Assembly (NCBI GenBank): GCA_963930775.1
Contig: OZ005701.1
Span: 4,905,669-4,969,668, forward strand
Direction of reading: 5' to 3'
Length of the DNA: 64,000 nucleotides
Source of the DNA: Cliona cf. orientalis
Lineage: Eukaryota > Porifera > Demospongiae > Clionaida > Clionaidae
The notes below the pieces were generated by a model, which did no database searches, was not told where the DNA came from, and saw nothing but the letters and a program-made list of their open reading frames with translations. Below, in pieces: positions 8,308 through 59,690 of the stretch. The translations under genes and the position numbers were made by a program. Within the stretch, counting starts at the first letter, position 1, and each line of letters opens with the position of its first letter.

Positions 8308-9164
8308 CTAAAACCAAAAGTCCTCATCAAATCCCCTTAAACCTTCAAAAAGTCTTCCAACACAAGGGTTTTTCTGATTTTTACCATCAACTCTAAAATG
8401 TCCGTATGGATCATGCTGGGGAAGCTTTGCATCACACAACCAGCAAAAGTGGCAGCGACACTGAGTACAGGTCATCTTATTGCAGCCATCACTCTTCTGT
8501 ATGTTCGAGTTGCAGTTAGGACACTGCTTGGCGTTAGCTTCCATCCATGTACTTGAATCAAGCTCTTGAAATGCTTGTTCCAACTTTTTCTTTCCATACT
8601 GCTTCTCCAGTGTACGCTTTCCGTCATCATCAAGAGCCTCGTATGTGGAACGGAGTTCTTTCAAATCACCTGGTAGCAGTCGACATGGAGAAATTCCATG
8701 CCAAGCTCGCTTACACAGAATACAGAAGGCAAATCTGCACCTTGGACACTGGCTCATGTTGGAGTCCTCCTCTTTTAGTGTCACACATTGACAGCTGGAC
8801 CTTGGACAGTAGACAATGTCGTTCATGCCATCCAGTGTTCGTTGCAGCAAGAGGGAATCGAAGCGTTCAAAGAGCTTTGGTGGAATAAGTTCCTTGATGA
8901 CAGCCGTGCTGATCTTTGATGTGCAACTGCCACTTGGGCAGTCAATTGCAGTAACATCTCCATCTGTGATCTTGGCAGAAATGTGAGAAGTGATACAGTC
9001 TCTACAGTGCACATGTTCACAAGGAAATAGCCTGATACATTTTGAGCCAGGTAGTGACAGGAAACAAATTTCACAGTCAAAGAAGCTTTCATTGAAGAGC
9101 TTTTCCTTTTCAAGACGGTTATAGTCAATGAGCTGAGACAACAGCAGATGTGGCAGCCCTATAT
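8308..9164 (-). CDS. RNF14-like RBR E3 ubiquitin ligase, C-terminal exon
   Basis: About 285 codons end at a TAG at 8308. They hold the complete RING1-IBR-RING2 block. RING1 starts CEICFLSLPG and has the PCEHVHCRDC pair. The IBR contains YCPRSSC and CPRCRFAFCILC. RING2 (CPNCNSNIQKSDGCNKMTC) holds the cysteine in DGC that forms the ubiquitin thioester in this family, followed by CHFCWLC. The tail (NPCVGRLFEGL, ending in an acidic/aromatic stretch) matches the RNF14 group. RBR ligases take ubiquitin from an E2 and pass it to a substrate lysine; RNF14 acts on stalled translation complexes. A TTTTGCAG acceptor at 9165-9166 sets the exon start. No ATG suits initiation here, and the N-terminal RWD domain expected of RNF14 was not found, so upstream exons lie outside what I could identify or are lost. 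Confidence 0.85.
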
Positions 9165-10134
9165 CTGCAAAATATGAGAAAAAGAAGCAATCATAGATTT
9201 GTGAAAACCTACTCTCCTCCTCCAATGGATGAGGTTTTATCAATGATCCAACTTAGATGGTCATAGGTAGAATATTACTTGTCAGGCTAAGTATTGCACG
9301 AGTGTAATAGATTGCCTTGACGAGTGATATTCTGCCACAAAATTTAATGATACTGTGATTATGTCTACTATGGTTACAACATTCAAGAAGGGTATGAGAC
9401 AAGAATACATGTGATAGAAAAGATAAATACCGTTCTAATACAAAGTGAGACAGTGCATAATATGGGAATACAATAATTGGGGCGAGCCTGAGCGAGCCCC
9501 ACACTAATCAGTACTACGAGAAAACCGCTGTACTTATGTTTGTTTGTGTGTATGTAGCGATATGTCAAACACGTACTCGCTAGCACACAGCGCATGCACA
9601 TATTATCGCGGTAAAGATCGTCAACGTTGACCGCACTTTAACTCTAAATATAGCTCACCAAAGATGCAGCTTGCATCCGTTCGAGTAGACTGCTAGAAAA
9701 CAAGGAAAGGTAAGGCATCAGTACAAGTATCTACAGCAAAATTGAAGGCTAGGCCTATAGTCTGGGTGCAAGGACTACGTTACGATCTAATTTTAGTAGC
9801 TACATACATGTAGTAGTCATCAGTGGCAAAACTCCTGACTTTAATACTGGGGATGAATCGTGCATGGTATGCAACTGTTATTTGTACTCCTCATCCCTTG
9901 GTCTTTATAGTGACAATAGAAAATCAACAGATAGCTGCTTGTACTGATATACTATGGATCTGGATCGAAGATAGTAGAGGGGGCATCCCAATCCTCCCCC
10001 TCTACTATATTAAAGTCTATATTATGAGCGAAGGCTTGCCCCCTCGATGATTTACATCACCCTAGTTATCAAGACTGTAGTGTGTTACATAGGCACAATA
10101 TCATTACCGTCATGGTACATAGCAATCATGATAA
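9165..10134. other. Spacer upstream of the RNF14-like exon
   Basis: I searched the minus strand for an RWD-coding exon and did not find one. A short intron of about 50 nt (GTAGGT at about 9214 to the acceptor at 9165) is possible but leads to a frame with an early stop. A palindromic phrase on TAGAGGGGG...CCCCCTCTA lies near 9972-10007. Confidence 0.4.
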
Positions 10135-30224: not shown

Positions 30225-30622
30225 ACCTTGGGGGAGAGAACAAACGAGAACATGTGAAGATACCTGTTACATGTTATGTTAAGTATACTTTTATTCAGCT
30301 GTTATATTATACCCTATTCAAATATCATGATGGTGTCTTTGGGAGCTGGGCTTCCTTGCTAGTCATTATTATTTACAACGTTATAATAAGCTATTATTAC
30401 CATACTAGAATTTGTCCACCAACTTGGTGTGACCGGGGGTCAATCCCCATCACTAATTAGGAGGTTAGTAGTTTGAATTAGTTATCATAGGGGTGAGGGT
30501 TTGATTATTACTTTTATTGTCCATCCACCCCCTCCATTGGGGGAGGTGTGACCAGGTTGACCTATATAGCGTCATCCTACAACTAAATAAACAGATGTGG
30601 CTAGTTAAAGAGTTTGTAATTC
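30225..30622. other. Gap between gag and RT of DIRS-like element 1
   Basis: AT-rich with stops in all frames. An acceptor-like CAACACAG at about 30639 stands just before the RT coding region, so RT may have been reached by splicing (inference). Confidence 0.35.
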
Positions 30623-32382
30623 TTGTCCAACACAGACAATTATTCTTACACTGAGGATTTGCTGGAGCTGGATCGATGTCGTCCACTGGGTCCAGGAGAG
30701 GTGTCAGTGCAGGAGAGGTTGTCAGGTGTTTGTACACCATTGAATCTGCTACAATGGGAGTCAATGTTGGCAGACCACCCAGACAGGAGTTATGTGGAGT
30801 TCATTCTGAAGGGTATCAAAGATGGGTTCCGGATTGGGTTTAGCCGGGCAATGGGAGGTGAGCTTCCATTAGCTGCTGCACGGAAGAATATGAAATTGGC
30901 AGAGGAGCACTGTCAGGTGGTGACCGATCATTTGGAGGCAAAACGATGCCGTGGGGTTATTCTGGGCCCATTTTCACGGGAGGAAATGCCTGGAGTTCAC
31001 GTGAGCAGATTTGGAGTGATTCTGAAGTCGCATCAGCCTGGAAAATGGCGTTTGATAGTGGATTTATCCCACCCGGAAGGGAGGAGTGTGAACGATGGGA
31101 TCGATTCAAGTCTGACATCACTTCAATATGTGCGGGTGGATGATATCGCAAAGCAGTTGTTGCAATTGGGGCCAGGCGCCTTAATGGCCAAACTAGATAT
31201 AAAGAGTGCCTACAGGAATGTGCCGGTCGATCCGGACGACCGTCCACTACTAGGCATGCAATGGGATGGTAAGATATACGTTGACGCTGCTCTGCCTTTT
31301 GGGCTTAGGTCAGCTCTGAAGGTTTTCAATGCTGTAGCTGACGCAATCGAGTGGATTGTGAAACGGCATGGTGTCGAATTGCTGTGGCATTACCTGGATG
31401 ATTTCATCATGTGTGGACCAGCTGGTACTGATGAGTGTTCCTTCAACTTGCGGATGTGTGTAAGCACTTGGGGGTCCCTCTGGCGGAGGAGAAATTGGAG
31501 GGTCCAGCCACAGCTCTAGTTTTTCTGGGCATTCTGATCGACACTGTAAAGGGGGAGCTTAGACTTCCAGTGGAGAAGCTGGAGAGGTTGCGTTCACAAA
31601 TCAAGGTGTGGCTTCAGAGAGATAGGTGCACAAAGAGGGAGCTGTTGTCAATTGCTGGTCAGCTTCAGCATGCGGCTACGGTGGTGTTGTCCGGAAGAGT
31701 TTTCGTTAGGCGGCTGTTTGATTTGAGTACAACAGTGAAGAAGCCCAATCACCATCTCCGGCTCAACAAGGGAGCTCGATCTGACCTGGCTTGATCGAAT
31801 GAATTTTTGGTTACCTGGAATGGTATCTCGTTGTTGGCGGTGATGGGGGAGCAGGAGCCTAGTGTTGTCCTTACATCGGATGCGTCCGGTTCGTGGGGCT
31901 GTGGAGCTTACTGGGGGTCGAAATGGTTTCAGCTTCCTTGGAGTGATACGGAGTGTTCAGTGGAGGTGAATATCGCGACTAAGGAGTTGATTCCGATCGT
32001 TATTGCAGCTGCAATTTGGGGCAGAGCATGGACGGGTTTGGTGGTTTGTTGCCGCTGTGACAATGAAGCAGTAGTGGCGGTTATTAACAAACGTACAAGT
32101 AAGGATGCAGAGCTGATGCACCTTTTGCGCTGCTTGGTCTTCTTTGAAGCCAAGTTTTCGACTAGGATGATAGCTACTCCTGTGGCTGGGGTGCAAAATA
32201 CACTGGCTGATGACTTATCCAGGGATAGGTTATCTTCTTTTTTGCAAGCAGCAGAAAATATGTCACTCACAGGGCAATATTTTCCTCCTCAGCCGCTGCT
32301 GGACATGTTAGTGAACCACAAGCCGGATTGGACATCAACTGCTTGGAGAGAGATGTTCAAAAGTACTTTGAACTTGGTTTAG
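30623..32382 (+). pseudogene. RT-RNase H of DIRS-like element 1
   Basis: RT motifs: RFGVILKSHQPGKWRLIVDL, LDIKSAYRNVPVDPDD, ALPFGLRSA and the catalytic LLWHYLDDFIM. Near 31435-31450 a one-base change moves the frame. The next block continues LGVPLAEEKLEGPATALVFL and meets TGA at 31792. RNase H follows with LTSDASGSWGCGAYWG, VEVNIATKELIPIVIAAA and CRCDNEAVVAVINK. It ends at 32382, overlapping the recombinase frame by about 55 nt. RT and RNase H copy the element RNA into DNA. This copy is inactive because of the frameshift and stop. Confidence 0.85.
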
Positions 32383-33311
32383 CGGTCTCAACAAAGAAGA
32401 CATACAGAGCTGGCATTAATAAGTTTGTTCAGTTTTGTGCTTCATACAATATTGCTTCACCGTTACCAGTATCACAATCAGTGTTATGTTTATTTATTTC
32501 TCATTTAGCTAATGTAGGTTTGTCCTATGGGACCATTAAGACATATTTAGCTGCAGTCAGGCATTTGCAAATCTCAATGAATCTGCCAGAGCCCAGATCA
32601 GTTCCGATGCCTAAGTTGGCGTTGGTGGAGAGGGGTATTCGTCACCTTGGAGCGTCGAGTAGGAGAACAAGATCTCGGCTGCCAATTACACCATGTATTC
32701 TGAGACAAATTAAAGCTTTGTGGTCTAGGGAAGCTATCTGTTATGACACAATAATGTTGTGGGCGGCATGCTGCACGGCATTTTTTGGCTTCTTCAGGAT
32801 GGGGGAAATTACTTGTTCCACATCAGATGGTCGGAGCAGTGAGCATTGTGTGTCAGTAGCAGACATAGCAGTAGATAACACTCAAGAGCCTCCAGTGATA
32901 AAGATCCATTTGCGTTCATCGAAAACGGATCAGTTCAGACAGGGTGTGGATATCTTTCTGGGGAGAACAGGGCAGGACTTATGCCCGGTGTCTGCGTTGC
33001 TCGCTTACTTGGCAGTTAGGGGCAGTGTGCCAGGCCCCCTTTTCAGGTTAAGAGACGGATGTTATCTCACAAAGGAAGTTTTCATAACCAGGGTTAGAGA
33101 GGCGTTATCTGTGCTTGGATACGATGAGGAGTCATATGCTGGCCACAGCTTTAGGATTGGAGCAGCCACCACAGCAGCCGAGCAGGGGGTGGAGGATTCC
33201 ATCATCAAGATGTTAGGGTGCTGGGAGAGTTCAGCTTTTCAACGATACGTGAGAGCTTCTCATCAGTCATTAGCAGCTATGTCCACGAGATTGGTGACTC
33301 CTACGCAGTAG
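32328..33311 (+). CDS. Tyrosine recombinase of DIRS-like element 1
   Basis: An open frame of 327 codons. No ATG stands at its 5' edge, so it is probably translated by frame switching or from a spliced RNA. The N-terminal core-binding part reads YFELGLAVSTKKTYRAGINK, then LPVSQSVLCLFISHLANVG. The catalytic part has the first Arg in FGFFRMGEIT, the H-x-x-R box in AGHSFRIGAAT and the nucleophile Tyr in AFQRYVRAS. Enzymes of this class integrate the circular DNA copy without a target duplication. It is the only undamaged frame of this element. It overlaps the RNase H end in another frame. Confidence 0.85.
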   Translation: MDINCLERDVQKYFELGLAVSTKKTYRAGINKFVQFCASYNIASPLPVSQSVLCLFISHLANVGLSYGTIKTYLAAVRHLQISMNLPEPRSVPMPKLALVERGIRHLGASSRRTRSRLPITPCILRQIKALWSREAICYDTIMLWAACCTAFFGFFRMGEITCSTSDGRSSEHCVSVADIAVDNTQEPPVIKIHLRSSKTDQFRQGVDIFLGRTGQDLCPVSALLAYLAVRGSVPGPLFRLRDGCYLTKEVFITRVREALSVLGYDEESYAGHSFRIGAATTAAEQGVEDSIIKMLGCWESSAFQRYVRASHQSLAAMSTRLVTPTQ

Positions 33312-33811
33312 TGATCAGCGTTAACAGTGTTGTCATATAGGTGTTTATTATCGTTAGTCTACTCGTTATTCTTATTAGTTCTGTATCACTAAACTCACCA
33401 TGTACATGTACACTTGTTCGACCGTCATACTTGTACGTGGTTGTTTGGAGGGAATGGCTGCGCCTTTCTGTGGAGGGTATTGGGGTGCAGGGAGCCCCAA
33501 TTTGGGTCCCTCCAAACAGAGGATATGTACAGGGGGCGTGGTTACCCGCGGAAAACGCTAGTGCTGCGGGACCAGAAGGCGGAGCATGCGCAGTTAAGTG
33601 CACGCTGGCACGTGTACACGCCACGCCCGATCTGCTGACTCGGCACGACCTCCATACACGTATATACACGTGGTGATTGGAATGAGGTATGAAAAGCGTA
33701 TGTGATCTTTATATGATGGAATGTAGACGAACAAACCAGTTAATTTTATTGTTAACTGCTCTTGATCCGCACTTCTGAGACAAATCCACCGGTAAGCTAA
33801 AAATTGATTTC
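33312..33811. other. 3' end of DIRS-like element 1 and flank
   Basis: A stem-loop is built from TTGTTTGGAGGGA (about 33440) and TCCCTCCAAACA (about 33509), with a nested TTGGGGT...GGGAGCCCCAA. GC-rich to about 33650, then AT-rich flank. No gene. Confidence 0.5.
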
Positions 33812-34200
33812 ATGTTAGTAGTTGATAATGGGCCTGCTGAGCAGCCAAGCTGTCCTATTGTACAGAATGATGTGCTTTTACACCTAATAGGTCTTCACAA
33901 AATAACACAAGAATCTTTCGCAGAATACCATAGCGAACGAAACTTTGTTGAGAGTGCGTGCAGAGAACAGTGTTGTCAGAACATGGGCCATTTTGTAGCT
34001 CGCAAGTTCATGATAATGCAAGTATTGGCTCACAGGAGTATAGATAAAATATGTAGGCAATCGCTGAATAAATTCAAGGCTGCATTTGCTCTGGAAGCTT
34101 TGCTGGAGAGCAGCTTCACTGCTACAGAAGAGTGAAGACTCATTGACTTTATTGCAAGTGAAGAAGTGGTGGCCTCCTTGAAAATGGGAAGAAATCATGA
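33812..34200 (+). pseudogene. Transposase-like fragment, 5' half, split by DIRS element 2
   Basis: The frame reads VVDNGPAEQPSCPIVQ, then FAEYHSERNFVESACREQ and KFMIMQVLAHRSIDKI, to a stop at 34133-34135. The same family occurs at 63165-63560. I recognise it as a transposase/integrase-like family common in sponge genomes, with VVDNGP as a likely catalytic Asp block; the superfamily is not certain. The element resumes at 39317 beyond the DIRS insertion. Confidence 0.6.
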
Positions 34201-34221
34201 TACACTAGGGAGTTCCACATC

Positions 34222-34358
34222 GTGGCAAGGCTGCACATATGACAGTGTATTTGGCCTCAAATAATGATATTCATAGCAAGTTCAAAGATTACATAATCAG
34301 AAAAAACAACTATAAATAGTAACAGACCACGTGCTATCCTCGGCCTCAAAATTTTGCT
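34222..34358. repeat. Left inverted terminal repeat of DIRS 2
   Basis: It begins TGGCAAGGCTGCACATATGA and ends CGGCCTCAAAATTTTGCT. It matches the reverse complement of 39125-39262 with few differences. Confidence 0.9.
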
Positions 34359-34503
34359 TACAGCAAGAACACGTTTTTGGGCTCAGAGAAAGTATTAACT
34401 CTGTACGTAAGGAAAGTTCGCGAAAGCCCCCCTTTTGGATCAAAGACCTGTTTAGATCCTGCCAGAAGCCCACCTGAACCTATTCCCGCTGGATCTGGCA
34501 GCC

Positions 34504-34866
34504 ATGAACGTTGACTCAGACGAAGGATCTCAACCGCCAGGGAACGGCTCGCCCGGGCATCACGTGACGTTCGGTAACCCCCGGCCCCGCGGAGTTTACA
34601 CACCGCCCCTCAACGACTCCTTTTTGAGGTTGAGCCCGACTGACTCATTAACCAGCCAGCACTCCGTACAATCGGCTGGACAGCCGAGACTACCTATCAT
34701 GCAACCAGTCCTCCCTCCAATGCTCCCCGTTTACCCTGGAAACACCACAGGAGCTCTACCTCAAGGTACATACGGTATTGAATGCCCTCTGGCACTACCG
34801 TTGAAACCTTTATTAGCAAGGTCTAAGCTGCCCTATACTGGCCAAACGACCTTAATAAATTTCTAG
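34504..34866 (+). CDS. Upstream open frame in DIRS 2 (gag leader?)
   Basis: A 120-codon frame from an ATG, rich in Pro/Ser/Gly (NVDSDEGSQPPGNGSPGHH, MQPVLPPMLPVYPGN). A donor-like CAAG|GTACAT at 34765/34766 could join it to the main gag. However, the acceptors at about 34966 and 35004 do not give an open, in-phase join by my reading. It may be a separate leader protein or an N-terminal gag exon with an unseen splice. Confidence 0.45.
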   Translation: MNVDSDEGSQPPGNGSPGHHVTFGNPRPRGVYTPPLNDSFLRLSPTDSLTSQHSVQSAGQPRLPIMQPVLPPMLPVYPGNTTGALPQGTYGIECPLALPLKPLLARSKLPYTGQTTLINF

Positions 34867-34945
34867 TGGTATTTTGGCACTACCACCTGTCACTTGATAA
34901 ATGAATGGTATTGAATGCCCCTTTTTGGCACTACCATAAGTCTCA
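34770..34945 (+). repeat. Short repeats in the DIRS 2 leader
   Basis: The phrase GGTATTGAATGCCC...GGCACTACC occurs at about 34774 and 34908, with a shorter version (GGTATTTTGGCACTACC) at about 34868. Confidence 0.6.
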
Positions 34946-34983
34946 ACAGTATTTTCTCTATTACAGGTTATTAATACTGTGTA

Positions 34984-35949
34984 ATGCCCACAATGTACCC
35001 ACAGCAGTTTGTGGGTGGGAGCTTGCTACCAACAAATCAACTCCCCGATACAAACCCAGCAAGCTCAATCCCTCCGCTTGCCGACCCAGAAGCAAGACTT
35101 GCTAAGAAAAGGAAACGCTACTATGAGGATGACTCCTCTGAAGATGATGAGGATGCGGAAGTAGATCCCGAATCATATTACCAGTCAACGCCACAGGAAA
35201 TGGAAAAGGTGGTCAATGATTTTATCGGCAAAACCTTCCATCGATGTCTCCCGAAACGTAAACGGTTTGAATTGGCACGAGAGTATCCCAAGCCAAGTTC
35301 CTCGGCAGTCGCAGTGCCCACTCTTGATTATGATATCAAAGGAGCTTTGGGCAAAGAAGTACCGGAAAAGAGTGATGCTCAGATGGCTAAGATACAGGCA
35401 ACTGTCCTGGCTACTTGTGCCCCACTGGCCAATTTCTGGTCACACCTAGCTGAGCAGCAACTAACAGGAAAACCAGAGGAGCTTATCCCGGTTAGTGAGG
35501 TTATCAAACTCACACAAGATACATTAGCCCTGATAGGCAATGCATCGAACTACATTTCCCAGAGTAGACGCTCATCAATAATCAGTAGCATCTCCAAATC
35601 TAGACCAAAGCTAAGCTCCTTCATGAAGGAAATTTGCAAGGATGACATTGGCGACACTGGCACCGAACTATTTGGCCCAGAAATCCGGAAGAAAATCACG
35701 GAAAGAGCCAACACGATTGATGCTTTCAATAAAGCAATTACCAAGGTCGACAACCCACCTAAATCATCCTCGCAGCCATCAACTAGCAGCAGTTTTTTAT
35801 CCAAGGGCCCGACCGCAAGGTACGGAGGCGAGTCGGGCAGAAGCTACACTCCGTACAAAAAGTTTCGCCCACACTACACCAACTTCAAAAGCACCCGGGG
35901 AAACTTCCGAAACCAGAAGAGGTTTCCAGACCCGAAACGCAAGGACTAA
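34984..35949 (+). CDS. Gag of DIRS 2
   Basis: A 321-codon frame from ATG. Features in order: a basic patch AKKRKRYYEDD that could be a nuclear localisation signal, a strongly acidic DDSSEDDEDAEVDPES, a central helical region (about residues 110-230, ANFWSHLAEQQLTGKPEEL) and an Arg/Gly/Tyr-rich basic tail (SYTPYKKFRPHYTNFKSTRG) likely to bind nucleic acid. No CCHC finger is present, unlike gag of DIRS-like element 1. RT opens in the -1 frame just after it. The function as structural gag is inferred from position and composition. Confidence 0.7.
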   Translation: MPTMYPQQFVGGSLLPTNQLPDTNPASSIPPLADPEARLAKKRKRYYEDDSSEDDEDAEVDPESYYQSTPQEMEKVVNDFIGKTFHRCLPKRKRFELAREYPKPSSSAVAVPTLDYDIKGALGKEVPEKSDAQMAKIQATVLATCAPLANFWSHLAEQQLTGKPEELIPVSEVIKLTQDTLALIGNASNYISQSRRSSIISSISKSRPKLSSFMKEICKDDIGDTGTELFGPEIRKKITERANTIDAFNKAITKVDNPPKSSSQPSTSSSFLSKGPTARYGGESGRSYTPYKKFRPHYTNFKSTRGNFRNQKRFPDPKRKD

Positions 35950-38794
35950 CTACAAAGGAGCAACCGGTGGGGGGGATATTACGGTCTCACCTCCCTGCTT
36001 GGCATCAGATTACCGACAATGCTTGGGTGCTGCAGTGTATTCAGGGTTACCATTTGGAGTTTGGGGATACTTTACCACAGGGCAATTGGCCCCCCAAACA
36101 GCCTCCTCTGTCACCAGAGCAAACACAAATTCTCAATCAAGAAATACTCAGCCTACTTCAAAAGAATGCCATCGAAAGCGCTCCCGGTCGAGAGGGTTTC
36201 TTCAGCCCTATGTTTACGGTACCCAAAAAAGACGGAGGTTGGAGACCGATAATCAATCTCAAGCGCCTCAACACCTATTTGGAGGTCCCTCATTTCAAAA
36301 TGGAGGGGATAAATACCCTAAAGGATGTACTCCAAAAGAACGACTTTATGGGAAAAATCGATCTAAAGGACACCTATCTAACAGTACCGGTATCTCCACA
36401 TCACCGCAAATTCCTCAAGTTTCAATGGAAAGGACAAAACTATCAATTCAAGTCTCTCCCCTTTGGCTTAGCGACAGCTCCACGAGTCTTCACCAAAATT
36501 CTTCGACCTCTGGCAGCGAAATTGAGGAAGCAGGGTATACGTATCGTCATCTACCTCGACGATATTTTGATTATGGCTCAAAGCAAGGATCTGTTAAGGT
36601 CTCACATGAGAGTACTCGCTCACGAATTGGAGTGCTTGGGGTTCAAGCTAAACCAAAACAAATGTGTCTGGACACCGACACAGACCATAGAATATCTGGG
36701 CTTTCTCATCAACTCAGTGAAGATGACAATATCTCTACCGGACGACAAACTCCACAAGATAAAGAAAGAATGCAGACACCTCTACAACAAGAGACGTGCG
36801 ACTGCTCGGGAGCTGGCCCACTTGATAGGCCTACTTTCGTCGACGATTCCAGCTGTGAGCGTCGCCCCCCTCCACTACCGAGCACTGCAGAGGTTACGTC
36901 ACAGGATTTTATCGATCTCAGCAGGAAATTACGACCATCGGGCAGAAATCACGGAGGAAGCGAAGGAAGACCTCATTTGGTGGATGAACAAACTCCAACA
37001 CTTCAACGATCACTCAGTTGTCCCACCCTCAGCAGACATGATAATCACAACAGATGCTTCGAAGTCCGGATGGGGTGCGACAGATCAGGCTGCGAGGATA
37101 GGAGGAGCGTGGACAATGGAAGAAAGAACTGCACACATCAATTTTCTGGAAATGAAGGCGGTACAGTTAGCTCTGCAGACGTTTGTCTCAAAGAAAAACA
37201 ACATTCATATCCTCCTGCTGATAGACAACTCCACAACAATAGCTTACATAAACCACAAAGGTGGAACTCACTCGAAAGCGTTGTCCAATCTGGCACTGAA
37301 CATATGGGATTGGTGTGTAAGCAGACGAATCTCTCTACATGCAGAGCACATTCCAGGTGTGATGAATTTGGTAGCAGATGCGGAATCGAGGAAAAGATTA
37401 GAGCCGAGCGATTGGATGCTGGATCAGGAAGTTTTCCATACACTGCACAGAGTATGGGGTCCATTCGACATCGATCTATTTGCAGCTCGCCACAACACGC
37501 AACTGCGCCGATACTTCAGCTTCAAACCAGATCCCGGGGCGGAAGCAGTGGACGCATTAGCCCAAACATGGACCAACTTCCGAGCTTATGCTTTTCCTCC
37601 TTTTCTTCTGATTGGGAGATGTCTCAGGAAACTAGAGCAGGATCAGGTGAAGGAAATGATCCTAATAGTTCCATTTTGGCACAATCAGTCTTGGTTCCCG
37701 ACTTTATTGGCCAGACTGATCGACATTCCCTTGATTCTACCGAACTTCAATCAGATAATAACCAACCCAAAAGGAGAGACACATCAAATGATAGCTCAGA
37801 ACAGCCTAACGTTAGTCGCCTGCAAAGTTTCCGGAATAATATCCAAGGTCACGGAATTTCAGATGACTCTTTCAAACTTATCACCGCAGCATGGAGAAGT
37901 AGCACTGAGAAACCTTACTCTTCAGCATGGGGAAAATGGGTTTTTTGGTGCAATCAAGCACAGATTGATCCCTTGCAGACATCTATCGGACCTGTATTAA
38001 ATTTTTTAACAGCTCAGTTCCAAGAGGGAAAGCAATACTCCACTCTAAATTCATACCGATCAGCATTATCCGCTACATTACCGCAAATAGACGGAAAACC
38101 AGTCGGACAACACCCAATGGTTGTTCGCCTGCTTCAAGGTATGTTCAATGAACGCCCTCCTGCACCTAGATACCAGGAAGTGTGGGATGTGGGTTTGGTT
38201 GTGAAACACATTCAGGATGGCCCAACAACTACTAATCTGTCACTGAAAGAACTTTCTAAGAGAACGGTCACATTATTGGCATTATGTAATGCTAACAGAG
38301 CTTCAGAGATTAAAGCATTGGACATTAGATTCAAGCGGTCAGTCGGAGAAGATGTTGTATTCACCATTCCAGGACTGACCAAAACACGTCGTTCTGGTCC
38401 ACTTAAAGAAGCGTATTTTTCAGTTTTCAAGGAAGCAGAGTCTTTGTGTCCTGTCAAAACTTTGCAAATTTATATGGAAAGAACAGCACCTCTCAGAATG
38501 CACGGTGATAACAAAGTGACTCAATTGATCATCTCCTACAAGAAGCCGTACAAACCTGTGAAATCAGGATCCATATCAAGATGGATAAAAGAGACCTTAG
38601 CAGATGCTGGAGTAGACACGGAGATCTTTAAAGGTCACTCCACCAGAGCTGCCTCGACTTCTGCAGCTGGTGTGAAAGGAGTCTCTGTTAATGACATCAT
38701 GGCCACAGCTGGATGGTCTAGGAGGTCAACCTTTGAGAAGTATTACCACAAACATATAACTAATGATTTTTCCAAGGCAGTTCTTCAATCATAA
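35642..38794 (+). CDS. Tyrosine recombinase of DIRS 2 (very long overlapping frame)
   Basis: The frame is open for 1050 codons from an ATG inside gag and lies over the whole RT frame. Only the last third is recognisable (from about 37790). It has a core-binding part (PYSSAWGKWVFWCNQ, GPVLNFLTAQFQEGKQYS) and a catalytic part with Arg in LCNANRASEIKALD, H-x-x-R in FKGHSTRAAST and Tyr in STFEKYYHKH. It integrates the circular DNA copy. DIRS1-type elements are known to have recombinase and RT frames that overlap, so the long open stretch may be real. The N-terminal two thirds have no domain I recognise and could be unused. The true start is uncertain. Confidence 0.75.
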   Translation: MTLATLAPNYLAQKSGRKSRKEPTRLMLSIKQLPRSTTHLNHPRSHQLAAVFYPRARPQGTEASRAEATLRTKSFAHTTPTSKAPGETSETRRGFQTRNARTNYKGATGGGDITVSPPCLASDYRQCLGAAVYSGLPFGVWGYFTTGQLAPQTASSVTRANTNSQSRNTQPTSKECHRKRSRSRGFLQPYVYGTQKRRRLETDNQSQAPQHLFGGPSFQNGGDKYPKGCTPKERLYGKNRSKGHLSNSTGISTSPQIPQVSMERTKLSIQVSPLWLSDSSTSLHQNSSTSGSEIEEAGYTYRHLPRRYFDYGSKQGSVKVSHESTRSRIGVLGVQAKPKQMCLDTDTDHRISGLSHQLSEDDNISTGRQTPQDKERMQTPLQQETCDCSGAGPLDRPTFVDDSSCERRPPPLPSTAEVTSQDFIDLSRKLRPSGRNHGGSEGRPHLVDEQTPTLQRSLSCPTLSRHDNHNRCFEVRMGCDRSGCEDRRSVDNGRKNCTHQFSGNEGGTVSSADVCLKEKQHSYPPADRQLHNNSLHKPQRWNSLESVVQSGTEHMGLVCKQTNLSTCRAHSRCDEFGSRCGIEEKIRAERLDAGSGSFPYTAQSMGSIRHRSICSSPQHATAPILQLQTRSRGGSSGRISPNMDQLPSLCFSSFSSDWEMSQETRAGSGEGNDPNSSILAQSVLVPDFIGQTDRHSLDSTELQSDNNQPKRRDTSNDSSEQPNVSRLQSFRNNIQGHGISDDSFKLITAAWRSSTEKPYSSAWGKWVFWCNQAQIDPLQTSIGPVLNFLTAQFQEGKQYSTLNSYRSALSATLPQIDGKPVGQHPMVVRLLQGMFNERPPAPRYQEVWDVGLVVKHIQDGPTTTNLSLKELSKRTVTLLALCNANRASEIKALDIRFKRSVGEDVVFTIPGLTKTRRSGPLKEAYFSVFKEAESLCPVKTLQIYMERTAPLRMHGDNKVTQLIISYKKPYKPVKSGSISRWIKETLADAGVDTEIFKGHSTRAASTSAAGVKGVSVNDIMATAGWSRRSTFEKYYHKHITNDFSKAVLQS
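35967..38000 (+). CDS. RT-RNase H-methyltransferase-like polyprotein of DIRS 2
   Basis: 677 codons. There is no ATG at its head; the frame opens just after gag in the -1 frame, which suggests frameshifting from gag. RT blocks: FTVPKKDGGWRPIINLKRLN, KIDLKDTYLTVPVSPHHRKF, SLPFGLATAPRVFTKIL and the catalytic IVIYLDDILIMA. RNase H: IITTDASKSGWGATDQ, INFLEMKAVQLALQTF, LLIDNSTTIAYINHKGGTHS. The C-terminal part (FDIDLFAARHNTQLRRYFSF, then PPFLLIGRCLRKLEQDQ and VPFWHNQSWFPTL) is the Dam-like methyltransferase region typical of DIRS. No stop or frameshift was seen, so the enzyme could be active. Its 3' end overlaps the recombinase frame. Confidence 0.88.
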   Translation: MGGILRSHLPAWHQITDNAWVLQCIQGYHLEFGDTLPQGNWPPKQPPLSPEQTQILNQEILSLLQKNAIESAPGREGFFSPMFTVPKKDGGWRPIINLKRLNTYLEVPHFKMEGINTLKDVLQKNDFMGKIDLKDTYLTVPVSPHHRKFLKFQWKGQNYQFKSLPFGLATAPRVFTKILRPLAAKLRKQGIRIVIYLDDILIMAQSKDLLRSHMRVLAHELECLGFKLNQNKCVWTPTQTIEYLGFLINSVKMTISLPDDKLHKIKKECRHLYNKRRATARELAHLIGLLSSTIPAVSVAPLHYRALQRLRHRILSISAGNYDHRAEITEEAKEDLIWWMNKLQHFNDHSVVPPSADMIITTDASKSGWGATDQAARIGGAWTMEERTAHINFLEMKAVQLALQTFVSKKNNIHILLLIDNSTTIAYINHKGGTHSKALSNLALNIWDWCVSRRISLHAEHIPGVMNLVADAESRKRLEPSDWMLDQEVFHTLHRVWGPFDIDLFAARHNTQLRRYFSFKPDPGAEAVDALAQTWTNFRAYAFPPFLLIGRCLRKLEQDQVKEMILIVPFWHNQSWFPTLLARLIDIPLILPNFNQIITNPKGETHQMIAQNSLTLVACKVSGIISKVTEFQMTLSNLSPQHGEVALRNLTLQHGENGFFGAIKHRLIPCRHLSDLY

Positions 38795-53400: not shown

Positions 53401-54286
53401 CTAGCTATAGTCCTGGGATGCTATTAGTTGATTTTTTTCCCCTCACAATTTTCCTCGGAGAGGTTTTTAGAGAGTTTTTTTTCCCCGTGGAGCGACATGT
53501 TGGCTACATGTCCTAAATAAATTATGTTTTCAGCTGGCTCATCCCAGTGTAGTAATTGTGTTAGTACATAGTGTACATACCTGTGCTATAATATTAATAT
53601 TATGCCTATGTACCTACTTGCAGATATTGTACTAGTTCTGTCACTTCATATATTATATTAAGTGTGCTAACCACATCAAAAATTTGACTCTCACTAAAGG
53701 TGTGCATGCATCATGCAATATTGGACACACATCTCAATAGCTAATTGGGATAAATTGGGTAGCTAATTGTGGGGCAATCAACAGCGAGAGAAACGTAAAA
53801 CACACAGAGTCACTCACACAACATACGAAACACACACAAACAGTGAAAGAGAGAGAGAGAGAGAGAGAGAGAGATCAACTCACTGCTGCATAGCTCCCAA
53901 AGAGCCAATTAAGTAGCTAAGTGTCTATTTCAGATAACAAATAGATAAAACTCAATTATTATTCACTAACCTAACGTCCTAAGGACAGCAGTTAGTGGGT
54001 TGTATATACCAAGATTCAAAGTAATCATGAGACTAAATAAGAATATTATTATAATAGATACTGTATGTCCTTGCTTGCAATTGGCTCAATCGTCACCATG
54101 GACTCCATATATGCATGCCACTTATAGATCTATGCTATAAAGCTGCCGGGTGGGCGGTAGCAGTAGCCGCATATACCTTACGCATACGGGCCTCTGATAT
54201 GGGCAGACTACTGTCAGTCCAGGACTTATAAATTTAACTCTTACAATTTGAGACACGCCCACTTATATGATGGCCGTACGGCTTAA
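53401..54286. other. Spacer with a (GA)n microsatellite
   Basis: A (GA)n run lies at about 53847-53873. No gene recognised. It ends at the TTAA that borders the next transposon. Confidence 0.5.
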
Positions 54287-57200
54287 GGGTGCATCACCAC
54301 CACCCACGCACATTTTTGGAGCGGTTGCTAGGGGTTATATCTCAGAAACTATGGCAGCTACTTGAATGAAACAAGGACCAGTCTGGAGTCACCATGGAAC
54401 TTAAGTCTATAAGCCAATCCCAAGGGCTTAAAGTAAAACGGGGGTAATGTTATAGATCCTGCTAGCTACAACCTTCAAATCGATAAAACTTACCTTGTGT
54501 TCACTTATAGAAGCTCAAATTTTTGTTACATGCATATCTCAACAAGGGCAATCCATTAACGGAGAGCTTTTGCCAGCGTGGTACTGATAAGTTGGATTTT
54601 TCATACATGACATCATCGTTTTGGTAAATTGGATGCACATAATTGGGAAAACTCTCCGTTACGGTCTAGAGCATGCTACTGGGAATCTTCATTCCAACTT
54701 TGGTCCAATTCTGATGAACACAGACCGAGTTTTACAAATTTATACGGTCTATGAGGGAAAGCTGCTGATAAATGCATGTTAGAACGTAAATTATTGCAAT
54801 TACACGTCAGTACCGTTCCGACCCCGCCCCTTTTTACAAGCATTGCATGCTAGAGCTTGCACCGCGTGCTACAGCAAGGAGGGATCTTTTGTGATGGTGG
54901 GTGGCTTTCAGAAAAGCCGGTTTAGTTGGTGGTATTGAAGAGGAGCGGAGAAAGCGATCCCAGTGCCAGAGAACCGTCGGAGAGCGTTCCAAGCTGCAAA
55001 AGGACAACCATACGGTACGGACGCCGCCAGCGCTAACGCTTAGGTTTGATGATCTCGCCGAGTTTGTCACGCAGTGGCTTGCTCCTGACGCCGCTATCCA
55101 GAAGGGCCTTGCTAAACTCCTCGCTGTCTTTGGAAGAGGACCTGAGATCATGTAGAGCTGCAAACGACAGCCCCAACTCGTTCAAGCGTTTAGCTTGAGC
55201 GTTGGTCACTCGCTTGCCAAGTGAACTGAGGAGCTGCGTGACTCGAGTGTGAGTGTTCTTCTGGGTAGCCCAAGCACCCAATTGTTGAGCTGGAGATCTG
55301 ACTGGTAGCGTGGTTAGCAAGTCTACAAGTTCAGTCTTCACCAGAATTTTCTCCATGGCCTCAACATCGGCTAGTGCTCGATGAGCTGGATAGGTGAGTC
55401 AACCGTGTATAAATACATCTATGCTTGTATAATATTATTATAAATACACTATACCTGGGTACTCATCTTTCTCAAAAAAGTGACGAAAGAGGTCCTCGAG
55501 ACCAAATTTGGTCACCGACTTGAGTGCACCGTGTCCATCCTTCTTAGCCTGCACATGTACATGTTTATAAATCATGGTAAATTATTTACGGAAATCTTAC
55601 TTGTTTCAGGTGTCCCAGCGTATCTGAAAAGTGGATCCTATGAGATGGTAATTGGGAGAGTGCAAGCTTCTCGGGCCGTTGTTCGATCTCAGCCAACAGT
55701 ATTGGGAAATCAAAGTGATACCCATTATGAGCAACAAGAACTGTATGTAGATGTATTCATTTCACAAGTCGGATCGTGTGTGCATCAAATTTTCTGACAA
55801 ACCAGGATAGTGATCGCTATCAGATGCCTCGTTGTACTCCTGTGTCGTGATATGGATCCACTTCAAAAACTCAGGTAGGACCTCTGACAATGGCTTCTCT
55901 TGCCGTAAGAGGGCGGCTGTGATACCTGTCTTATCAGATACTACATGCATGCGCACAGTTGATGCACAAACATGTACATAATATAATATTGTGTTCAATA
56001 TGTATGTGTGATTGCTTACCTTTCTTTGAAATGGTTCTGCTTGTCTTCACTAGGCTTGAGAAGGTCGGTTGGCTGAATGATGACAGAGGCACACCTACTA
56101 CCTTGGCAGCGATCTCTGTGATGTGCTCACAGTAGATGCTGAAGCCAGTTGTCTCACAATCATAAAATATCAGCAAAGGATTGGCATCGTCACTGCTACC
56201 CACGCTGGTATCTTCACACTCATGATGGTCATCAACAACTGGTTCAGCATCTTCATCGCCCCCGTCCTTGGTTTCAGTGCGCTCTGTCTCTCCCTGCCCA
56301 TTGCCAACGTACTCCCCAACAGTAGCTCCAGCACATCGAAGCTGCTGCATGTAAGCCTTCTCCTTCTCATGCCTAGTGGTCTTGGCTTTTTTCGTGATGT
56401 TTCTGTACGCATACATGTACATTTGTATATTATTGGGATACATGTTTATTGCACACTATACCGCTTATGCAGGTATGATCTCCCTGACCGCCTCTTTCTG
56501 CTCTTCTCCCACTCTTCTTGTTCGGCTAAGATGTTGAGAGCTGCGGACGAAGGAACATCAACCCCCATGTTTGCCAAGCACAGCAGCTTCCAGATTGGAC
56601 CAAGATTCTACAATCATAATACACAATGTATGTATAAATTAAATTGTATCGCAATACCTCACCTTGTGACAAACTGCCATATTCGTCTTGCAAACATAGT
56701 GGGTGTGCCCGAGATCTGTCCTCTTGTCACGATACATTAGTGCCAGTCCATGAAAACCCTCGACAGTGTTTGTCGTCATGCGGCCACCGAGAGAGACGTA
56801 GTCTTGAGGGCGTGCAGCCATGTTCTCCAGGATCTCACGGAACTTCTTAGCCTGTGCCTCACAGGTAAACCTGTGCTTTGACCTGTAGGGCTGACCATTG
56901 ACCTCCTAAAAACACCACCCATAAAATTGATGCACTTCATTTGGAACATTTGCAGACCTTGTCATGATGGCACCACTCAGAACTGTGGTCATCCAGGCAG
57001 TAGTGGCTGTAGAAGTTCATGATGGCCGAAGAGAACACGGTGAAAGGGTCATCACTCTCTCTGATCTTGTCGGAGGACAACAGGTTGCTCAGCGCAGCTT
57101 TGCAACTAGAGAGAAAGGCATCATCCATCCTCTTGCAGCGAGGTTGACCCTTGGGACACTTTCATTGGCAGATGGTGTGCATGTAAGTTGAAAATATCAT

Positions 57201-58513
57201 ACATTGTAACACCACATAGGTACATGTACTTACCGTGCATTTTGTTGGTTTTATGTTCTGCAGCTCTTTGTGGAGTGTCTTTGCTGAGTGGTTGGAGCAG
57301 TAGGTGATCGAGCCTTCTGGAAAGTGGTTGCAGAAGATAGCATTTCCAGAGGAGTCCTTGTCCGTGACTATCTCCTTGACGATGAAGCTTTCTGCCTTCA
57401 CCTTTTCCAGAAGCTCATCGAACATATTTCCTTCTGCTCCATTGGACGTCCCCTCCCAGTTGTGTCCATTCCCCCGCTTGGTCCGGTGGGTGAACCAGGC
57501 TACATTTCCAGTGGAGTAGTCATGAAGTGTGCCAGAAGAATTGTTGGAGTAGTGCCCTCGTGTCAGGTAGAAACCATCGTAGGATGCAACCCACTGTTGG
57601 TGGTCTCCACGTTCACGTATCTGCCTGCGTACCTGCTCACAAGACCACTCTGCCAACTCTGTCACATGCTTCTCTGTCCACTCCACGATTCGCAGCCACT
57701 GGTTCTTGGAACACGACTGTATGCCGAGCATGTTAGACACTCTCTCATACTCGGCAAACAACTGACCGTTCATCATGAACGATAGAGCTGAATAGTTTTT
57801 CGTCCAGGACTTGCCAGGTGATGACCTGACAGTAGGAGGCTCTGAACCGGGTGGCACTCTCGTGCAGAGCTCTGGAAAACACTGGACAAGAGAGCTTTTG
57901 AAAGCGCAGTCGAAACCCAAGCATCGTACCGCCTGAACAACCTTTGCGTTGATGTCGGCAAGTGATTGTGATGCTGTGTCGTGACTAACGCTCTCTAAAA
58001 CTGGACCAGGTTGTGTGTGTGGCAGCTCACCCAAGTCGTTTTGCTGTTCTGTCTCCAGCTCCATAGGAGGTAGATACAAACCTTCCATGCCATCAAGAGT
58101 GGCAGGGACTATCAAGGCAGAGTAAATACTATATCATTTTTATGTGCTATCATTTTGCATACATGCAGTTATGCAATTATTATTATTGTTGTCACTGTTT
58201 TATGCTTCTTGTAGTACAGTTAGTTTGGTATTTACCTGCAGGTCTGTTACCATCTGCTGGAAGGTCATAGGGTTTCCATCTATTGACTGAAGCCCTTTGT
58301 GTGCGTCTTTTCCCCTTGGACTGTGGCATGGTGGTTCTGCAGCTGGCTCACTCTTACCGCGCTCTCATTTGTACTGTTTACTACGCGCACGCGCGTGCAG
58401 TGAAAATAGTCATGAATATCATTATTAGCTTGCGGTTTGTGCTACATGCTGCGGTTTGTAGTCTTGTAATTGTACATTCCTGCATATTGTAATGGTTGCT
58501 ATGGGAAGCACCC
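54287..58513 (-). mobile_element. Kolobok-like DNA transposon (TTAA), 4.2 kb, intact
   Basis: TTAA stands at 54283-54286 and 58514-58517. Inside these, the left end GGGTGCATCAC and the right end (complement) GGGTGCTTCCC form short imperfect inverted ends. The single gene inside is on the minus strand and fully in phase. A TTAA duplication together with a Kolobok/Mutator-like transposase fits the Kolobok superfamily. The region 54287-55032 is 3' non-coding. Confidence 0.7.
55033..58329 (-). CDS. Kolobok/Mutator-like transposase fused to a DEDDh exonuclease
   Basis: Ten exons on the minus strand: 58329-58236, 58108-57234, 57158-56958, 56905-56663, 56607-56462, 56402-56020, 55940-55803, 55740-55601, 55548-55455 and 55385-55033. 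All junctions join in phase, 888 codons. The basic head is MPQSKGKRRTQR. The DDE-like part has YDGFYLTRGHYS (Asp 1), VTDKDSSGNAIFCNHFP (Asp 2), YCSNHSAKTLHKEL, KCT then CPKGQPRCK, HSSEWCHHDK and TTNTVEGFHGLALMYRDKR (candidate Glu). An acidic linker precedes a complete exonuclease: ExoI IFYDCETTGFS, ExoII AHNGYHFDFPILL and ExoIII HRALADVEAMEKI. These four acidic residues plus His define 3'-5' exonucleases of the DnaQ/TREX type. A basic helical tail ends IKPKR. One donor (GTCTGC at 56957) and one (GTTTGT at 55802) are weak. The transposase and nuclease domains are read from motifs; their joint action in transposition is inference. Confidence 0.82.
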
Positions 58514-58517
58514 TTAA

Positions 58518-58794
58518 TGATATTCATATTTACTGGATCGCGATTGGGTCGGGATTGCATTTACGTCGTAATAAGGCTTACCGTAGGACGGGTTTTAATT
58601 GCGTAGTTTAATAATTGCGTTCTAGTCAAGTCAGGCCAAATTGCGAATCCAATAATTGCGATGGATGACCCCGTACCATACTGTAGGTAGTATACATGCA
58701 CGTTTATGTTTGCGAATCTATTAATTGCGAAACATAGAAAAACTCGCAATTCGCAATCAATAGATACTCGCAATTAAAACCTGACCAACAATAT
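58518..58794. mobile_element. Small TIR element with AATTGCG repeats
   Basis: GGGTTTTAATTGCG near 58588 is mirrored by CGCAATTAAAACC near 58770-58783. Inside, AATTGCG(A) recurs at least six times in both orientations. It lies directly before the transposase remnant and could be its terminal region or a separate MITE. Confidence 0.5.
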
Positions 58795-59690
58795 TTGGGG
58801 AGGATAATGGCACAGTATACAGTTAAAGGTTATGGAGATAAGCCTGGTCTGCTTCACAGTAAAACATGGCTTTGGTTTCATCTGAGCTATCTCTGCTTGA
58901 CTGATGCAGAGTTTGATAGAGAGAAAAGAAAAATTCACATCCTGGACTGTGGAAGGAAGCGTTATGCTTTTTTAAAGATCAGAGCTGAGTACGAGGGATA
59001 CTGAGACAGTGAGAAATTCCTCAACCAGGTGGATCATAGCATCACCATCGCCGAGCTGAAGTATCCAAAGGAGACACACAGCCTGGTTTTCTTGTTCGAC
59101 CAAAGCAGTGGGCACACTGCATTTACCAGCGACGCTCTCAACGTCAATCGAATGAACGTCAACCCTGGTGGGGCTCAACCACAGCTATGAGACACCATAT
59201 GGAATGGAAGGTCTCAGAGAATGGTGTTTAGCGATGGCACTCCAAAAGGAATGAGGCAAGTCCTCAATGAAAGGGAGTGGACACAAAAGGAATGAAGGCT
59301 GCTGACATGTGTAAAGCACTTGGAGAGATGCACGATTTCAAGTACGAAATAATGACGGTTGAGCACTTGGTTAGTAACAGTGGATATCGTGCTATTTTTA
59401 TCCCCCAAATTCCATTGTGAATTGAATCCGATCGAGGCTTGCTGGGGACAGGGTAAACGCTACACGAGGGCCCATTGTGATTACAGCTTTCAAGGTCTCG
59501 AAAAAACCGTTAATCCAGGCTTGAACAGTATCACACATGACCATATCTGGAAGTTCTACCGTAAAGTGAGGGACACAATGCATGCCTATAGTGAAGGTGT
59601 TTCTGCCAGTCCTGATTTGGAGAAAGCGCTGAAGCAGTACAAGAGTCATCGTCGAGTTTCAGAAGCGGGACTAAGTTCACTTGCGTAATT
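58795..59690 (+). pseudogene. DDE transposase remnant
   Basis: Blocks: YTVKGYGDKPGLLHSKTWLW, REKRKIHILDCGRKRYAFLK, a stop, EKFLNQVDHSITIAELKYP, LVFLFDQSSGHTAFTSDALN (catalytic Asp block), TPKGMRQVLNE, then after frame changes FHCELNPIEACWGQGKRYTR with the Asn-Pro-Ile-Glu catalytic Glu and FYRKVRDTMHAYSEGVSA, ending VSEAGLSSLA and a stop. The family is common in sponge genomes; the FHCELNPIE box places it with DDE_3-type endonucleases. Several stops and frame changes make it inactive. Short relatives are at 17122-17330 and possibly 42930. Confidence 0.75.

Follow-up and report, generated by a model that had tools for sequence, protein, structure and literature searches.

A Kolobok transposon of the sponge Cliona cf. 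orientalis with a joined transposase and DEDDh exonuclease, apparently on a different branch from KolobokD

The window analyzed here, a stretch of 64,000 nucleotides from the sponge Cliona cf. orientalis (G000:C13:4905669-4969668), carries on its reverse strand a TTAA-flanked transposon whose single ten-exon gene joins a Kolobok transposase to a DEDDh exonuclease. We class the element as a Kolobok with a DEDDh nuclease and thus as a variant of something already known, apparently on a different branch from the published KolobokD elements. As the probable explanation we regard an autonomous-type Kolobok transposon that encodes a transposase with a tethered nuclease, including an end-processing role for the nuclease and its recruitment separately from KolobokD. 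The genome searched comprised 216.8 Mb in 149 contigs (labelled C1, C2, C13 etc.). The element and its gene have these positions in the window:

54283-54286, no strand: left TTAA target-site copy (single TTAA or CTAA at equivalent empty repeat sites)
54287-58513, minus strand: transposon body with termini GGGTGC...GCACCC (matches of two other long copies stop there; the ends recur in non-autonomous copies of ~0.6 kb)
58514-58517, no strand: right TTAA target-site copy (read in the window sequence)
55033-58329, minus strand: ten-exon gene for an 883-aa transposase-exonuclease (nine introns, all GT-AG, in phase)
58236-58329, minus strand: exon 1 (gene model)
57234-58108, minus strand: exon 2, with the first and second catalytic D and CxxH (gene model, motifs)
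56958-57158, minus strand: exon 3, where the transposase is rich in Cys and His (gene model, alignment)
56663-56905, minus strand: exon 4, with catalytic E439 in NTVEGFHG (gene model, motifs)
56462-56607, minus strand: exon 5 (gene model)
56020-56402, minus strand: exon 6, acidic linker and ExoI YDCETTG (gene model, Pfam scan)
55803-55925, minus strand: exon 7 (gene model)
55601-55740, minus strand: exon 8, ExoII AHNGYHFD (gene model, motifs)
55455-55548, minus strand: exon 9 (gene model)
55033-55385, minus strand: exon 10, ExoIII HRALADV and C-terminal tail (gene model, motifs; tail comparable with stand-alone open reading frames)

The element lies between two TTAA copies, with the short matching ends on their inner sides that a sequence-only reading of this DNA had pointed out. 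The unbroken match between the two ends covers only the first six terminal bases, and within the window the ten-base ends TTAAGGGTGC and GCACCCTTAA are both unique. The termini follow the Kolobok type 5'-RR...YY-3' as GG...CC in the window copy, in a second long copy on C13 (L006) and in 14 short copies; the third long copy, on C1 (L007), has an A instead of the last C. For a 4-bp TTAA target-site duplication, as in Kolobok, evidence came from all three long copies, 13 of the 14 short copies and all six empty repeat sites fetched. These sites came from a search in which the two flanks of the insertion, joined together, served as query. Among the 40 matches listed of 664 candidates, two were the window's own flanks, six spanned the junction and the others were one-sided. 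The six junction-spanning repeat copies were uninterrupted by an insert, with TTAA in two of them and CTAA in four. Such uninterrupted copies with a single TTAA or CTAA are direct evidence that one TTAA was duplicated on insertion. The element inserted at TTAA and duplicated it.

A genome search at the DNA level, with the exon 3-4 stretch as query, recovered the window, the near-identical copy on C13, the copy on C1 (97% identity) and two short matches on C19. Compared with the window element, L006 was 99.3% identical over 3.6 kb and 87% identical in the final 0.7 kb; for L007 the identity was 90-95%. Both matches ended 0-5 bases from the TTAA borders, as the sequence-only reading had required of other copies, and the flanks were unrelated by eye. 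Exon 2 is broken up by ~1.6 kb in L006, while in L007 the exonuclease part contains two stop codons, some of exon 3 is missing and there are further insertions; in both, exon 2 is longer by 54 bases than in the window copy. With L006 and L007 broken, only the window copy among these three keeps an entirely open frame. The earlier description of the element as intact thus holds for the reading frame of this copy, open in all ten exons, and does not extend to expression.

Matches to the element ends numbered 39 with the left-end query and 31 with the right-end query, and many of them pair as elements of ~0.62 kb. The 14 short copies fetched all had both ends listed. TTAA was present on both sides in all but one (L054), and their pairwise identity was 96.7-99.7%. 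They consist of ~450 left and ~100 right window-like bases with ~70 bases between. A short non-autonomous derivative thus probably multiplied recently, as judged by these sequences. The window element is a real DNA transposon that was apparently mobile in the recent past. The right-end sequence was also found five times within ~130 kb on C3 (G000:C3:8954143-9083557), at 83-88% identity and with no left-end match listed there.

The gene runs from 58329 down to 55033, and its nine introns are 52-127 bases long. The ten in-phase exons described earlier stand, while the product is 883 aa long in our model instead of the 888 residues given then, a difference that must come from some of the exon borders chosen. 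The six motifs quoted at that time are each present once and in the stated order, a D-D-E core being followed by a full DEDDh set with all catalytic residues in one frame. From the motifs we assigned the catalytic residues of the transposase as D209, D281 and E439, with C302xxH305 between the second D and E. This DDD/E core with an intervening C/DxxH is a Kolobok feature, which agrees with the TTAA in long copies, short copies and empty sites and with the Kolobok-type assignment made beforehand. When the window protein was aligned with ten homologues (11 rows), D281, C302, H305 and E439 were invariant and D209 was nearly so. Between C/DxxH and E, where nearly all Kolobok lineages have a zinc finger, a putative finger may be formed by some of C322, C324, C331, C377, H381, C386 and H387, all invariant in the 11 rows.

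In the exonuclease half, the Pfam model PF00929 (Exonuclease) matched residues 598-780 with E 2.9e-8. This answers the suggestion of the sequence-only reading to scan the product with hidden Markov models; for the other half, the transposase model PF20700 matched relatives and not the product itself. All five DEDDh catalytic residues were present (D601, E603, D699, H768 and D773, assigned from motifs). In the 11-row alignment, rows that reach the catalytic positions keep these residues in all but two cases: the ExoIII His is replaced by Tyr in P0003, and the ExoII Asp is missing from P0008, for which the predicted protein stops at that point. Against the PDB, the exonuclease family profile matched best a PolC-type exonuclease, over part of the domain, and also matched exodeoxyribonuclease III (9l8a) and TREX2. 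In a single-sequence structure search, a chain named exodeoxyribonuclease III ranked first. The likeness to TREX2 and to the bacterial PolC exonuclease is a sequence similarity across the DEDDh exonuclease; neither is known to have a Kolobok transposase attached.

The first protein search gave 14 homologues, one of which is annotated in the sponge Dysidea avara. By their precomputed Pfam annotation, six had PF20700 and PF00929 in one predicted protein, four had PF00929 alone, two had PF20700 alone and two had neither. A broader search with a profile yielded 53 proteins. Among them is P0023, from the sea anemone Actinostola, whose transposase is of the same type and which by eye also has an ExoIII-like piece. 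An exonuclease-only query aimed at KolobokD proteins (P0009, residues 485-750) recovered itself alone at E <= 1e-10 among 2504 candidates, a negative that says little because the known relatives P0001-P0008 were missed too. On viral contigs, none of 22 pattern matches was confirmed.

Against L006, the ratio of non-synonymous to synonymous substitution rates (dN/dS) was 0.22 in exons 1-5 and 0.29 in exons 6-10; against L007 it was 0.20 and 0.27, respectively. The comparison covered 877 codons for L006 and 852 for L007, with gapped and intron-split codons omitted and the two L007 stop codons set aside. The ratios are alike in both halves and so suggest a similar constraint on both, though the counts are small.

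Relatives of the nuclease also stand alone in this genome. A search with the exonuclease part recovered not only the three copies but also two open reading frames (ORFs) in tandem on C12 and one on C10. The pair (L079, G000:C12:8078900-8081900) comprises ORFs of 232 and 324 aa with 34% and 30% identity, and the C10 ORF (L083, G000:C10:5096500-5098500) has 402 aa and 26% identity. Between the 324-aa C12 protein and P0001, the alignment begins at ExoI and reaches into the C-terminal tail (E 4.7e-27). With the window product, this C12 protein had a BLAST match (E 7.4e-18) that ended before the tail, with the five catalytic positions kept by eye. The C-terminal tail is common at least to the 324-aa C12 ORF and P0001. 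The transposon may have taken the module from a stand-alone gene, or may have given rise to such a gene.

PF00929 also matched ten other ORFs of ~270-300 aa, of which nine lie on C1 and the tenth on C2 (e.g., L070-L072). We considered them as a second DEDDh transposon and set this aside, as no Kolobok transposase was seen by eye in the printed ORFs of the three C1/C2 loci fetched, which were read without a profile run and, at two loci, from the first 120 residues per ORF. The exonuclease ORF at these three loci is presumably REXO4/ISG20-like, and the ORFs are perhaps retrocopies or part of a repeat.

Kolobok elements encoding a DEDDh (DnaQ) exonuclease were named KolobokD in 2022 in Mob DNA, from mollusks, arthropods and cnidarians (PMC9587614). 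The sequence-only reading had tentatively taken the fusion to be undescribed for Kolobok; with KolobokD published, the claimed novelty of the combination is incorrect in substance. The window element shares with KolobokD both the superfamily and the DEDDh exonuclease (PF00929, five catalytic residues). The difference, KolobokD being compared by description only, lies in a CCHC zinc finger downstream of the first catalytic D, which is stated for KolobokD as one of the lineages in which this finger barely varies (PMC9587614), whereas the window product has no Cys between D209 and D281 and hence no finger of this type. No sequence labelled KolobokD was among the results of the three protein searches.

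Finger-bearing Kolobok-like elements are present in the same genome (L073, L074, L075 and L076), and L077 has, by eye, a partial CCHC finger only. The CCHC pattern was too strict for L073 and L075, and their fingers were read by eye in the translations. L073 and L075 also have, by eye, a YqaJ/lambda-exonuclease-like C-terminus, i.e., they are KolobokE-like. A tree was calculated from the window product, ten locus ORFs and 16 proteins chosen from the 54, with P0049 dropped and without KolobokD references (26 rows, 140 columns). The window lineage and a second finger-less family (L042-L046) were split from the finger-bearing elements at 100/99, and the 16 rows of the window lineage grouped at 91/93. 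Because of the missing CCHC finger and the 100/99 split on this short alignment, we provisionally assign the element to Kolobok but not to KolobokD.

Other transposons combine comparable parts. KolobokE has a lambda-exonuclease-like protein, KolobokP a His-Me finger and KolobokH a RecQ (PMC9587614); like the window element, they join a Kolobok transposase to an accessory nuclease or helicase, but not of the DEDDh kind. Some Dada transposases contain a DEDDy exonuclease (PMC3706591). Dada thus resembles the window element in having a DDE transposase and a DnaQ-like 3'-5' exonuclease in one element, with a similar proposed role, and differs in its 6-7 bp target duplications and its superfamily (PMC3706591). 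The TTAA duplication is found in piggyBac too, and Kolobok termini are RR/YY, “unlike piggyBac” (PMC9587614). Membership in piggyBac was ruled out by the termini and by the transposase signature (Kolobok CxxH). Among the Pfam matches of the window product at E <= 1 there was no piggyBac model, a weak negative, since PF20700 was missed there too. The piggyBac transposase differs from that of Kolobok.

D-D-E enzymes cut and join transposon ends, and DEDDh enzymes are 3'-5' exonucleases. In the explanation that we prefer, the transposase would excise the element and insert it at TTAA. The tethered exonuclease would remove 3' ends, either at the opened donor site or from flaps or intermediates that lead to no product, and the element, not its host, would provide the processing of ends. 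We infer that the exonuclease may trim 3' ends during transposition. For KolobokD, whose exonuclease was likened to TREX, 3' end degradation during transposition has been proposed (PMC9587614), which agrees with the processing of DNA ends put forward in the sequence-only reading. The nuclease would have been recruited separately from KolobokD, from stand-alone genes like the C12 pair or in exchange with them. The window lineage falls outside the group of Kolobok-like elements in this genome that bear a CCHC finger, where KolobokD would belong by description, and its nuclease was thus perhaps recruited independently, as far as sequence comparison can tell.

Several points weigh against this explanation. 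Both other long copies are broken. The short copies are only ~87% (left) and 77% (right) identical to the window element, and a sister element may therefore have moved them. The Mutator-like transposase model PF20700 was not matched by the window product at E <= 1 in Pfam, whereas three of four scanned relatives matched it (E 3.8e-13 to 8.8e-16). The dN/dS values are pairwise counts from few differences (8 non-synonymous and 9 synonymous against L006). The separate recruitment was concluded from one KolobokD feature stated in text and from a short-segment tree without KolobokD.

Tentatively, and with rather less than even confidence, we extend the explanation to a DEDDh-plus-tail module that became part of Kolobok transposases on two or more occasions, one in the CCHC-finger KolobokD clade and one in the finger-less clade, and that is also free-standing in the same genome. 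If so, the module has been traded between host and transposons, and 3' end trimming is a step that such TTAA transposons repeatedly need to own. The stand-alone relatives in the same genome make the direction of gene exchange testable, and a transposase with its own 3'-5' exonuclease, together with near-identical short copies and empty sites, offers a testable system.

The element could instead be a plain member of KolobokD that lost the CCHC finger, or one of a kind that the paper's statement does not cover. We consider this possible but doubtful. Superfamily and accessory enzyme are the same, and Actinostola P0023, with the window type of transposase and its ExoIII-like piece, comes from the cnidarians, from which KolobokD was reported (PMC9587614). 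However, KolobokD is placed among lineages with a barely varying finger (PMC9587614). Moreover, among 55 proteins (the window product and P0001-P0054) the first D was recognizable in 48, of which 47 had <=2 Cys in the examined stretch; the remaining one, P0036, had four Cys in a longer stretch that includes CxxH. The finger-bearing elements of the same genome are also far off in the tree.

It is improbable that the exonuclease serves as an accessory against host DNA defence, by TREX-like removal of transposon DNA. The weak similarity to TREX2 and to the exodeoxyribonuclease III chain would fit such a role, but the PolC-type exonuclease scored best with the family profile, and a nuclease covalently fused to the transposase would be expected to act at transposon ends. 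For an effect on host DNA sensing, as suggested in the sequence-only reading, nothing but the weak TREX2 similarity spoke. Two neighbouring genes, or a fusion gene domesticated by the host, would fit the multi-exon structure and the few long copies (three plus fragments), but we rule out two genes and give the whole idea hardly any credence, since all exons lie within TTAA borders common to copies at unrelated sites, both domains are kept together in copies and relatives (in agreement with the single gene read earlier), and their presence in one predicted protein in six homologues, with dN/dS of 0.20-0.29, excludes two genes as well as a dead passenger.

The second finger-less family (L042-L046 and many places, mainly on C1) is a large Kolobok/Mutator-like transposase family with many ORFs of >1,000 aa. 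It makes up most of the 111 protein matches, at ~23-35% identity. Two scanned members have a C-terminal Ulp1-type C48 protease and a PHD finger, with C48 below the cut-off in L042 and above it in L044. The borders of this family were looked for and not found, and no paper in the literature library searched names both Kolobok and Ulp1.

In the window, what looks by eye like a decayed second DDE transposase adjoins the element at 58738-59688. A piece of it (59356-59685) had a weak DDE_3 match below the cut-off (E 0.0035), and two other scanned pieces had none. The ORFs at 30620-38791 have reverse transcriptase, phage-integrase SAM-like and integrase domains, which suggests a tyrosine-recombinase retroelement, presumably DIRS-like. 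A RING/IBR ubiquitin-ligase-like gene piece is located at 8311-9252 on the minus strand.
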